Positions 47,243 through 52,348 of a stretch of 64,000 nt of DNA are shown here, one piece after another. Position numbers and translations under genes: made by a program. Numbering within the stretch: position 1 is the first letter of the stretch; every line of letters begins with the position of its first letter. The notes under the pieces were generated by a model. The model was given only the letters and a program-made list of their open reading frames with translations. It had not been told where the DNA came from and did not search any database. The stretch spans positions 732,001 through 796,000 of the forward strand of contig WVSP01000001.1 of assembly GCA_015689735.1 (NCBI GenBank). Reading direction: 5' to 3'. Source of the DNA: Rhodobacterales bacterium LSUCC0031. Lineage in GTDB: Bacteria; Pseudomonadota; Alphaproteobacteria; Rhodobacterales; Rhodobacteraceae.

Positions 47243-48730
47243 GTGACCAAGACACACGCCGCCTTGGCAATTTGCGCCGCGATCATCTGGGCATCGGGCG
47301 CAGACGCGCAGCAAGCTGACACGATCACCACCAGCATCCAACAATATGATAATGGTGGCATCTACGAAGGTGAGTTTCGCAACGGCCTTCAGCACGGCCA
47401 AGGGATATATCGCCTTCCCAATGGGTTCGAATATACGGGCGCTTGGGTTGATGGCGAAATGCGCGGCCAAGGTCGCGCCATCTTTCCCGACCGATCCATC
47501 TATGAGGGGGAATTCCTTGCCGGTCGGCCACACGGCATGGGCAAGGTTACCTATGCCGATGGTTCAACCTATGAGGGCGATTGGGTGGATGGCAGCATCC
47601 AAGGTAGCGGTACAGCCATCTACTCCAACGGTTTGAGTTATACCGGCGCTTTCCAAAATGGTCTGCATCATGGCGAAGGTATCATCACCGGCCCAGGCGG
47701 CTATCGCTACGCGGGGACATGGGTCAACGGCGTGATGGAGGGGCAAGGCGCCATCACTTATCCCGATGGCGCAACGTATGAAGGCGGCTTCATTGCGGGA
47801 TTGCGTGCAGGCAACGGGCGGCTCGATATGCCCGATGGTGCGCGTTACGAGGGTGAATGGGCCGATGGCCAAATCAATGGCACGGGCGTACTGACGCAAT
47901 CCAATGGTGACGTTTATTCCGGCGGCTTCGTCGCAGGCCAACGCGCGGGGCGTGGCACTGTCCGCTACGCCAATGGCGATATCTACGAGGGCGATTTTGC
48001 CAATGACCAGCGCCATGGTATCGGGACGCTGACGGCTACCGATGGGTTCAGATATACCGGCGACTGGGTCGAAGGCCGTATCCGTGGCAATGGCAAGATC
48101 ACCTATCCCGATGGATCGATTTATGAGGGCGCTTTTGTCGATGATCTGGCCCATGGTACCGGCACGATCACCTATCCAGATGGTGCATCCTATACAGGCG
48201 ACTGGGTCGAAGGTGTAATCCAAGGGACCGGCACTGCCATCTATGCCAATGGGCTCACCTATGTTGGACAGTTCCTCAATGCGCGCCAACATGGCCAAGG
48301 CATCATGACCCATCCCGATGGCTACCGCTACGAAGGGGAGTGGCAAGATGGGCTGCGCCATGGTCAAGGGCGGGCCACCTATCTTGATGGTTCAGTCTAT
48401 GATGGCACCTTCGTTGCAGGCGAGCGTGCAGGCCAAGGCCGGCTGACCATGCCTGCGCCAAATGCCTTTTCCTATGTCGGCGAATGGGCCGATGGCGAGA
48501 TCAACGGCTTTGGCATCGCCACCTATGCCAACGGCGATATCTACGAAGGCCGCTTTGTCGAGGGACGCCGCGAGGGCGAAGGCACCATGCGCTATGCCAC
48601 TGGCGAGGTGCTGCGCGGCACATGGGAAAACGGTCTGCCAACCGAGGGCGCGGCGGTCGATGGTCCAACTCCCGCCGCCGATCCCGATACGACCGAGGCA
48701 AATCCAGGCGCCCCGGTGCAACAACCCTAG
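47243..48730 (+). CDS. Exported MORN-repeat protein
   Basis: 495 residues from GTG 47243. Signal peptide about 1-22 (AALAICAAIIWASGADA). Eighteen full 23-residue MORN units (YxGxF/WxxGxxxGxG) run from residue 41 to 456, plus a partial nineteenth; a Pro/Ala/Thr tail ends the protein. Units 1-9 (41-247) and 10-18 (248-456) match one for one, so the array is a duplicated nine-unit block; unit 16 has two extra residues. MORN sheets commonly bind lipids or proteins. Presumably periplasmic. Role unknown. Confidence 0.9.
   Translation: MTKTHAALAICAAIIWASGADAQQADTITTSIQQYDNGGIYEGEFRNGLQHGQGIYRLPNGFEYTGAWVDGEMRGQGRAIFPDRSIYEGEFLAGRPHGMGKVTYADGSTYEGDWVDGSIQGSGTAIYSNGLSYTGAFQNGLHHGEGIITGPGGYRYAGTWVNGVMEGQGAITYPDGATYEGGFIAGLRAGNGRLDMPDGARYEGEWADGQINGTGVLTQSNGDVYSGGFVAGQRAGRGTVRYANGDIYEGDFANDQRHGIGTLTATDGFRYTGDWVEGRIRGNGKITYPDGSIYEGAFVDDLAHGTGTITYPDGASYTGDWVEGVIQGTGTAIYANGLTYVGQFLNARQHGQGIMTHPDGYRYEGEWQDGLRHGQGRATYLDGSVYDGTFVAGERAGQGRLTMPAPNAFSYVGEWADGEINGFGIATYANGDIYEGRFVEGRREGEGTMRYATGEVLRGTWENGLPTEGAAVDGPTPAADPDTTEANPGAPVQQP
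47363..48610 (+). repeat. Two tandem nine-unit MORN blocks
   Basis: Block 1 is 47363-47983, block 2 is 47984-48610. Aromatic residue at position 5 of each unit alternates F/W through units 1-9 and again 10-18, and the alternation breaks (F-F) exactly at the 9/10 junction. Units 4/13, 5/14, 7/16, 8/17 and 9/18 are most alike. Confidence 0.85.
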
Positions 48731-50163: not shown

Positions 50164-52224
50164 TCAAGCCGCGATGAGCCCCATGCTCTCCAGCTTCAAG
50201 AGCACTTGGTGGGCGCAGTAATCCACATCCATGCCTTCGGTATCGACGACCAATTCGGCTGTGGTCGGCGCCTCGTAGGGGTCAGAAATTCCGGTGAATT
50301 CCTTGATCTTGCCCTCGCGCGCCAGCTTGTAGAGCCCCTTGCGGTCGCGGCGTTCGCATTCCTCGATGGGCGTGGCCACATGCACCTCGATGAAGGCGCC
50401 GAAGGCCTCGATCATCTCGCGCACGGCGCGGCGGGTGGCGGTATAGGGCGCGATGGGCGCGCAGATCGCGATGCCGCCATTCTTGGTGATTTCACTAGCC
50501 ACATAGCCGATGCGGCGGATGTTGATGTCGCGATGCTCTTTCGAAAAGCCAAGCTCCGATGACAGGTGCTTGCGCACCACGTCGCCATCGAGAAGCGTCA
50601 CGGGCCGCCCGCCCATCTCCATCAGCTTGACCATCAGCGCGTTGGCGATGGTCGATTTGCCGGACCCCGACAGGCCCGTGAAAAACACGGTGAACCCCTG
50701 CTGGCTGCGCGGCGGCGAGGTGCGGCGCAACTCGCGCACGACCTCGGGGAAGGAGAACCATTCGGGAATTTCCAAGCCCTCGCGCAAGCGGCGGCGCAGT
50801 TCGGTGCCGGAGATATCGAGGATCGTATCGCCCTCGGGCACCTCGTTGGCGGGGTAATACTGCGCCTTTTCCTGCACATAGACCATGTGCTTGAAATCGA
50901 CCATCTCGATGCCGATCTCGGCCTCGTGCTTTTTGAACAGTTCCTGCGCGTCATAGGGGCCGTAGAAATCCTGCCCCTGGCTGTTCTTGCCGGGGCCCGC
51001 ATGGTCGCGGCCAACGATGAAATGGGTGCAGCCGTGGTTGCGGCGGATCAGCCCGTGCCAGACCGCCTCGCGCGGGCCCGCCATGCGCATGGCAAGGTTC
51101 AAGAGGCTCATGGTCGTGGTGGCCGAGGGATACTTGTCCAAGACCGCCTCGTAGCAGCGCACGCGGGTGAAATGGTCGACATCGCCGGGCTTGGTCATGC
51201 CGACGACGGGGTGGATCAAGAGGTTCGCCTGCGCTTCCTTGGCGGCGCGGAAGGTCAGTTCCTGATGCGCGCGGTGCAGCGGGTTGCGGGTCTGAAACGC
51301 CACGATGCGCCGCCAGCCGAGCTTGCGGAAATAGGCGCGCAACTCGTTGGGCGTGTCGCGCCGCGCGCGGAAATCGTAATGCACGGGCGGCTGGATACCG
51401 GTGATGGCGCCGCCGAGGTAAATCGGCCCCGCGACATGGTGCAGGTAGTTGACCGCCGGATGCGCCAGATCATCGGCGCCGAACACCATCTGCGCTTCGC
51501 GCGCCTTGTTGGGGATGTATTTGTCTGAAATCGACAAGATCGCAAGGATCACCCCTTCGGCATCGCGCAGCGCGATATCTTGGCCGGGTTCGACCTTGGC
51601 CGCGAAGTCTTCGGACACATCAAGCGTGATGGGCATGGGCCAGAGCGTGCCGTCGGCAAGGCGCATGGTCTCGACCACACTTTCGTAATCGGCTTGGCCC
51701 AAGAAGCCCTTGAGCGGCGAGAAGCCGCCATTCATCAACAGTTCCAGATCGCAGGTCTGACGCGCGCTCAGGTCCCATGACACGAGGTCGGCTGCCTCGC
51801 GCTTGAGTTTCTGCGCGCTATCGGGCGAGACATAGAGTTCCTGGATCGGGGAGAGATGGGTCTGCATATGCGGGGTCCTGGTCTTGAGGGGGGAAACACC
51901 GCTCGCCGTGCCGGTCAATTCGGCATGGAGAGCGTCGTACTCGGCAAGCTTTCGTAACAAGAAGTTGTCGGTGAGGCGGGTCTTGAGGGCGGCACCCTGT
52001 GGGGTCAAAGCATAAGCCGTGCGTTGGCGGCGGTCGCTGCTGTCACGGTTGGTTGAGCGCACAAGCCCTACCTCCATCACTGCGCGCAAGACCGCGTTCA
52101 GGCGCCCGAGGCTAATATCCAACGCCTGTGCCGTGGCCCGCTGCGGTGCGTCTGGTGCGAGGTCGATCTGACGGAGCAGCCGAAACATCAGGTCTTCATC
52201 AGGCAGGTTTTGCGTATCTGGCAT
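50164..52224 (-). CDS. cysC: HTH domain fused to Sat-CysC (ATP sulfurylase/APS kinase)
   Basis: 686 residues from ATG 52224. Residues 1-103 form a winged helix like the EPS-associated MarR group (PQRATAQALDISLGRLNAVL as HTH; KLAEYDALHAEL as end helix). A 16-residue linker leads to Met120 (51867), the canonical Sat-CysC start. Sat follows (FQTRNPLHRAHQELTF, VGRDHAG), then APS kinase with P-loop TGLSGSGKST. The enzyme makes APS then PAPS for sulfate assimilation. AGGA lies eight bases before Met120, so a separate 567-residue enzyme may also be made. Downstream HxlR is convergent. Confidence 0.85.
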   Translation of the reverse strand: MPDTQNLPDEDLMFRLLRQIDLAPDAPQRATAQALDISLGRLNAVLRAVMEVGLVRSTNRDSSDRRQRTAYALTPQGAALKTRLTDNFLLRKLAEYDALHAELTGTASGVSPLKTRTPHMQTHLSPIQELYVSPDSAQKLKREAADLVSWDLSARQTCDLELLMNGGFSPLKGFLGQADYESVVETMRLADGTLWPMPITLDVSEDFAAKVEPGQDIALRDAEGVILAILSISDKYIPNKAREAQMVFGADDLAHPAVNYLHHVAGPIYLGGAITGIQPPVHYDFRARRDTPNELRAYFRKLGWRRIVAFQTRNPLHRAHQELTFRAAKEAQANLLIHPVVGMTKPGDVDHFTRVRCYEAVLDKYPSATTTMSLLNLAMRMAGPREAVWHGLIRRNHGCTHFIVGRDHAGPGKNSQGQDFYGPYDAQELFKKHEAEIGIEMVDFKHMVYVQEKAQYYPANEVPEGDTILDISGTELRRRLREGLEIPEWFSFPEVVRELRRTSPPRSQQGFTVFFTGLSGSGKSTIANALMVKLMEMGGRPVTLLDGDVVRKHLSSELGFSKEHRDINIRRIGYVASEITKNGGIAICAPIAPYTATRRAVREMIEAFGAFIEVHVATPIEECERRDRKGLYKLAREGKIKEFTGISDPYEAPTTAELVVDTEGMDVDYCAHQVLLKLESMGLIAA

Positions 52225-52240
52225 GGCGAGCTCTTACTTG

Positions 52241-52306
52241 TTCAAAGTTGAACGTATTTCTCGAAAGTTGCAAAGTAAAGAGTTTTGTTCATGTCTGAAC
52301 GTATTT
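52241..52306 (-). promoter_or_regulatory. Two operator-like repeats upstream of HTH-Sat-CysC
   Basis: TTCAAAGTTGAACGTATTT (52241-52259) and TTCATGTCTGAACGTATTT (52288-52306) match at 15 of 19 positions, 47 bp apart. Each holds TTCA...TGAA dyads; the region is AT-rich against a GC-rich background. Likely promoter and autoregulatory site of the fused regulator. Confidence 0.6.
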
Positions 52307-52314
52307 TTTCAGAC

Positions 52315-52348
52315 AAAAAAGCCCGCCACAATGGCTGTGGCGGGCTTT
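52315..52348 (-). terminator. trxB terminator
   Basis: AAAGCCCGCCACA (52318-52330) pairs perfectly with TGTGGCGGGCTTT (52336-52348), followed on the minus strand by a T-run (52320-52315). It insulates trxB from the sat-cysC promoter. Confidence 0.92.

Follow-up and report, generated by a model that had tools for sequence, protein, structure and literature searches.

A putative trigger enzyme in Rhodobacteraceae: Sat-CysC fused to a MarR_EPS-type winged helix, with a predicted operator and nested start

The gene at positions 50164 to 52224 of the window (the whole stretch of DNA that was analyzed, 64,000 nucleotides from Rhodobacterales bacterium LSUCC0031) joins a winged-helix head, a short linker and the sulfate-activation enzyme Sat-CysC in one frame. 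Its product is proposed to be a trigger enzyme, a reading to which we assign a probability of roughly 75%: the head would bind the promoter of its own gene and repress it, and a nested start would add a headless Sat-CysC. Trigger enzymes are enzymes that also bind DNA or RNA for gene control, as PutA, BirA and NadR do. Judged from the sequence, the fused protein has both a DNA-binding part and a cognate operator, and we infer DNA binding, repression and the two products by sequence comparison. The features referred to below are the following.

50164–52224, minus strand: fused gene (winged-helix head, linker and Sat-CysC), 686 aa, 76.5 kDa predicted
51913–52200, minus strand: MarR_EPS-type winged-helix domain, aa 9–104, from the TIGR04176 match, the structure model and Foldseek
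51868–51912, minus strand: linker, aa 105–119, with low model confidence and a dN/dS of 0.83
50164–51867, minus strand: nested open reading frame from Met120, Sat-CysC, 567 aa, 63.4 kDa predicted
51876–51879, minus strand: Shine-Dalgarno-like AGGA inside the gene, 12 nt ahead of codon 120
52240–52253, no strand assigned: proximal candidate operator GTTCA-N4-TGAAC, overlapping the presumed −10 region
52287–52300, no strand assigned: distal candidate operator GTTCA-N4-TGAAC, at a distance of 47 bp from its proximal counterpart
52311–52345, minus strand: terminator-like hairpin with a U-tract behind trxB (−26.8 kcal/mol, z −5.0)

The fused gene and its occurrence in the family

The open reading frame starts with ATG and contains no internal stop. 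Residues 119–685 matched the NCBIfam family NF004040 (Sat-CysC) with 1062.5 bits, above its cut-off of 669, and carry Sat followed by APS kinase in a single chain, as this family requires; in Pfam, PUA_2, ATP-sulfurylase and APS_kinase all scored above their cut-offs. With these full-length matches and the Sat-CysC motifs RNPLHRAH and GLSGSGKST, the enzyme part is predicted to be complete. The fused gene was the sole APS-kinase match in the window's genome (96% complete), where one PAPS-reductase match was detected, at C2:68317.

The head matched TIGR04176 (MarR_EPS) over residues 9–104, with 89.3 bits when isolated and 84.6 bits within the whole protein, around a cut-off of 88; its winged-helix matches in Pfam were all below threshold. 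The structure model of the head is a winged helix that ends in a long helix (mean pLDDT 81.7, blocks of 77–95 over residues 11–100), and the top 50 Foldseek hits of this model were mostly MarR-family regulators (best E 9.8e-5). By profile, the closest solved relative was CouR (E 0.0003). The recognition helix, SLGRLN, corresponds to residues 38–43 and the long C-terminal helix to residues 75–104. MarR_EPS proteins are usually small and stand alone near exopolysaccharide genes. Since this head is fused to Sat-CysC and its gene lies behind trxB in the window, the head probably derives from the MarR_EPS family and the fused protein falls outside the TIGR04176 equivalog. The model of the full-length protein was poor (pLDDT 65.5, pTM 0.42), and the low model confidence over the linker suggests that it is probably disordered.

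The fusion was present, with an open frame, in all 13 genomes of the window's genus and in single genomes from 56 further genera. These occurrences ruled out a frameshift or sequencing artefact, and the in-frame fusion of a regulator with Sat-CysC described by the first-pass annotation is real. The search for the same architecture in the family, sampled at one genome per genus, returned at least 57 fused cases among 295 genomes when the alignment had to start at residue 10 or earlier. A head-only query of the order gave matches of at least 54% identity inside open frames of at least 689 aa in 83 of 292 genomes, all from the window's own family; this order-wide count was deduced from frame length, the loci not being verified one by one. 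The other head relatives in the order genomes (E 2e-12 or better) lay in frames of 111–199 aa. Among 385 genomes of the class, the only fused-looking matches were two from the same family, and outside it the longest frame around a head match had 343 aa, with no fusion seen. Additionally, all 79 evaluable loci among the best 80 of 319 named loci were fused, including those of Roseicyclus, Roseibacterium, Nioella, Roseovarius, Shimia, Phaeobacter italicus, Thalassovita, Jannaschia and others; the named loci partly duplicate the genus and family genomes, so the counts of the two sets are not additive.

For locus comparisons, a set of 69 fused loci (L301, at a contig end, was left out) was set against 54 unfused loci, a non-random choice of 53 of the 95 listed unfused rows plus L015; these 53 were the 48 best-scoring rows and five selected for a stop-crossing match or a longer reach into the head. 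Separate neighboring genes with a stop in the linker, which would have spoken against the first-pass annotation, were ruled out as the usual arrangement: none of the 69 fused loci has a stop there, and the one flagged in L038 is at the extreme C-terminus. From ELTG to codon 120 the linker has 14 residues in 68 of the 69 loci and 13 in the other. No recognizable head was detected within up to 900 bases upstream of the unfused loci, where three matches were at chance level (E ≥3).

Median dN/dS values within the genus, each taken over 78 pairs, were 0.067 in Sat, 0.066 in CysC and 0.14 in the head. The linker, compared over 76 pairs, reached 0.83, and its amino acids are nearly free to change. 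The head, by these ratios, is under purifying selection, and a recent accident was ruled out by the presence of the head in 69 loci together with its dN/dS. On the Sat-CysC tree, a quick build with SH-aLRT support only and no mixture model, the fused and unfused states changed into each other 15 times, at least six of them on supported branches.

Genome G009 (84% complete, 3% contamination) holds a fused locus, L012, together with the unfused L015, and contamination is possible there. A headless Sat-CysC copy, L321, is located in a rhamnose/polysaccharide cluster of the Roseobacter litoralis plasmid pRLO149_63, and plasmids of Sulfitobacter, Roseobacter and others carry similar copies in which the match begins at residue 114–123.

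The palindrome upstream of fused genes

The palindrome GTTCA-N4-TGAAC occurs exactly twice in the whole window, both times just upstream of the fused gene, where repeats had already been noticed; 0.05 copies are expected by chance, and none of 100 shuffles contained two. Among the fused loci, 67 of 68 (L075 was left out because of a contig end) have an exact copy upstream, and the remaining one differs by a single mismatch, whereas none of the 54 examined unfused orthologues has it (best, 2–5 mismatches). When every one of the 1024 half-sites was scanned at a 4-bp spacing, GTTCA was recovered in 67 of 69 upstream regions and the runner-up in 3. The palindrome was also present in each of the best 80 of 319 named loci. 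In six independent pairs on supported branches of the Sat-CysC tree it tracked the head (median p 0.031): nearly all of 200 pairings gave six out of six, the rest gave five with one undecided, and the reverse never occurred. GTTCA-N4-TGAAC is thus very probably the operator of the head. This association favors the earlier proposal that the enzyme controls its own gene through DNA binding. The predicted control is dispensable, since the 54 examined unfused orthologues do without both head and palindrome.

The wider consensus of the palindrome at the fused genes is TGTGTTCA-N4-TGAACACA. From the palindrome to the first in-frame start codon the distance is 4–25 nt in 65 of 67 loci; the other two have 43 and 59 nt. 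A conserved AT precedes the consensus, and a CTTT-like element lies about 29 nt upstream; these are read as a putative −10 and −35, respectively. Because no consensus sigma-70 promoter was found between 52150 and 52500, the overlap of the palindrome with the −10 is taken from column conservation. Two exact sites spaced by 47 or 49 bp were found in 14 of the 69 fused loci, 11 of them from the window's own genus. In the window, the presumed −35 sits between the proximal and the distal palindromes (52240–52300).

The hairpin and U-tract separate trxB from the fused gene and therefore suggest that the latter has its own promoter; a scan for terminator patterns gave no hit at this junction. A trxB-end motif, short and set by eye, was counted directly upstream in 27 of the 69 fused loci (within 810 nt of the Sat start) and in 29 of the 54 unfused ones (within 390 nt), and many of the fused and unfused genes therefore occupy the same place. 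Elsewhere in the window, at 47243–48730 on the plus strand, a 495-aa open reading frame of MORN-like repeats adjoins an NAD-synthetase-like gene (both named by eye).

The third exact palindrome of the window's genome is inside a 764-codon open frame, and sites with at most one mismatch were at background level (45 versus 42 in the reversed control). The fused gene's own promoter is therefore the only likely target that the sequence offers in this genome, to which the single-target reading applies. Of the earlier suggestion that the protein controls its own gene or others, the first part is favored and the second found no support in this genome. A site shared with cysH was ruled out, the nearest one with at most one mismatch on C2 being about 24 kb from the PAPS-reductase match. 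The 13 genus genomes have 2–6 exact palindromes each, against 0–2 in the control. Genomes G002 and G007 each have four away from the fused gene, more than the window's genome.

The palindrome was also looked for upstream of stand-alone relatives of the head. In the family, it was present in exact form within 330 bp upstream of all 15 relatives with an SLGxxN-like helix and of none of the six with other helices, five of which had GCTCA-type variants (L019 counted); the helix grouping was made after the sites had been seen, and L020, L217 and L218 were dropped for lack of a match to the head. The loci behind this pattern are L016, L017, L206–L216 and L219–L225. Outside the family, none of seven stand-alone relatives had an exact copy, two of them (L183 and L184) having an SLGxxN helix. 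Within the family, the operator of a stand-alone MarR_EPS relative appears to be readable from its helix.

Nine of the 54 unfused orthologues (L096, L097, L110, L114, L118, L131, L142, L145 and L147) share CTAGACTTT or CTTGAATTT 80–102 nt upstream of sat, perhaps a promoter or the site of another regulator.

The nested start at codon 120

An AGGA ahead of Met120 had been proposed to allow a second product. In the window it occupies 51879–51876 and Met120 occupies 51867–51865, and the −12 position of AGGA relative to codon 120 is kept exactly in 68 of the 69 fused loci. The Arg that it encodes was written AGG in 67 of 68 loci, whereas at all other places in these genes AGG accounted for 25 of 3,633 Arg codons. 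The residue that follows may be T, S, N or M, yet the base after AGG stayed A. Codon 120 was ATG in 67 and GTG in two of the 69 loci. In the 79 evaluable loci among the best 80 of 319 named ones it was ATG in 65, GTG in 13 and TTG in one, with AGGA in 77 and CGGA in the other two. The linker amino acids are nearly neutral and the start signals constant, which therefore points to selection on translation initiation. Hence the conserved nested start probably also yields the headless enzyme, and so two products. The two alternatives offered earlier, self-control and two products, are not mutually exclusive, and the comparative evidence favors both.

Proposed mechanism, alternatives and known systems

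In the proposed mechanism, the heads of full-length chains would pair through their long C-terminal helix and bind GTTCA-N4-TGAAC over their own promoter, so that the gene would be repressed; repression is suggested by the place of the operator. The amount of PAPS-making enzyme, and perhaps also its ligand state, would in this way limit its own synthesis. The nested ribosome-binding site in the linker would provide headless Sat-CysC from the same mRNA, and not every enzyme chain would then need to carry a head. Two further points are speculative: an effect of PAPS, APS or sulfate on the binding of DNA, and oligomers that contain both long and short chains. PAPS binding to an APS-kinase-like domain is known from fungal ATP sulfurylase, and the best PDB match of the enzyme was 1i2d, which we take to be that protein; such binding is, by analogy, a candidate signal. 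A fuller version, in which the chains form mixed oligomers, filling with PAPS or APS changes the pairing of the heads, the enzyme thereby reports sulfur status and the nested start determines the feedback gain, is tentative, and the odds are against it.

The palindrome might instead be the site of a separate, trans-acting MarR_EPS regulator that stands alone, in which case the head of the fusion would be a leftover or an oligomerization piece. The same palindrome does occur at stand-alone relatives, and two genus genomes hold such a regulator (L016 and L017). However, some fused genomes, G003 and G004 among them, lack any further relative of the head at E 0.001, the closest paralogue of the head in the window's genome (L019, 34–35% identical) differs in its helix and lacks an exact site, and the palindrome is missing from the 54 unfused loci, wherever the head is missing. 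We therefore regard a regulator in trans as very improbable. It is also conceivable, although unlikely, that the fusion is the sole product, with AGG-A acting as a rare-codon pause for folding of the head and Met120 as a relic: AGG is indeed rare (92 of 3,701 Arg codons of the fused genes, 67 of them at the nested site) and is placed between the two domains. Nevertheless, a pause would not account for the A kept after AGG when the residue changes, for the exact −12 spacing in 68 of 69 loci, or for a codon 120 that is always a start codon while Met, Val and Leu are all used.

A stronger competitor, though itself doubtful, is that the head activates instead of repressing, or binds without any enzyme-derived signal, as simple amount-dependent feedback. 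Metabolite sensing is a supposition, and 14 of 69 loci have a second, distal site beyond the presumed −35, both of which would suit it; the proximal site, over the presumed −10 and 4–25 nt before the start in 65 of 67 loci, is in the place of a repressor, which speaks against activation. Repression by the enzyme's own head, together with the nested start, remains the preferred reading.

The DNA-binding part of PutA is a ribbon-helix-helix. PMC8249747 describes PutA of E. coli as a trigger enzyme that binds only at its own promoter region. The fused Sat-CysC resembles it in that an enzyme of metabolism carries a DNA-binding part, here one that is predicted to act at the promoter of its own gene. 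Unlike PutA, it combines a Sat-CysC enzyme, a MarR_EPS winged helix and a conserved nested start for a predicted headless enzyme. By analogy, PutA is the closest precedent. We know of no fused winged helix in the PAPS reductase of Tuber melanosporum, which unlike the fused Sat-CysC is another enzyme and eukaryotic. That reductase is reported in PMC4848566 to be a moonlighting transcriptional activator; like the fused protein, for which this is predicted, it is an enzyme of sulfate assimilation that acts in transcription.

The head has GTTCA-N4-TGAAC upstream, like the stand-alone MarR_EPS regulators of the family with an SLGxxN-like helix, and differs from MarR_EPS regulators in being fused to an enzyme, the window's locus lying behind trxB and not in an exopolysaccharide locus. 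The enzyme part, like the bifunctional Sat-CysC of NF004040 (PDB 2gks and 3cr8), is predicted to be complete, with RNPLHRAH and GLSGSGKST; unlike 2gks and 3cr8, it has an extra N-terminal head predicted to bind DNA. In a literature search covering titles and the starts of abstracts, with most subscription journals lying outside, nothing was found on the fusion, its operator or the nested start, nor on a transcriptional regulator of Sat-CysC in Rhodobacteraceae; the accessible parts of PMC4103551, PMC3678758 and PMC5343134 name no regulator of Sat-CysC.

The regulator of Sat-CysC proposed here would be a part of the enzyme, and this in many genera of a marine family; sulfate activation would, if this is true, join the short list of trigger enzymes. 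The loci would provide a series of natural transitions, with head and operator coming and going in step, and would offer a testable operator for the little-described MarR_EPS regulators. The fusion may have originated in polysaccharide loci, where genes for MarR_EPS regulators are found as well as additional copies of Sat-CysC, and where PAPS may serve sulfation; examples of such loci are that of R. litoralis pRLO149_63 and L020, which lies beside a phosphomannomutase-like gene (named by eye).
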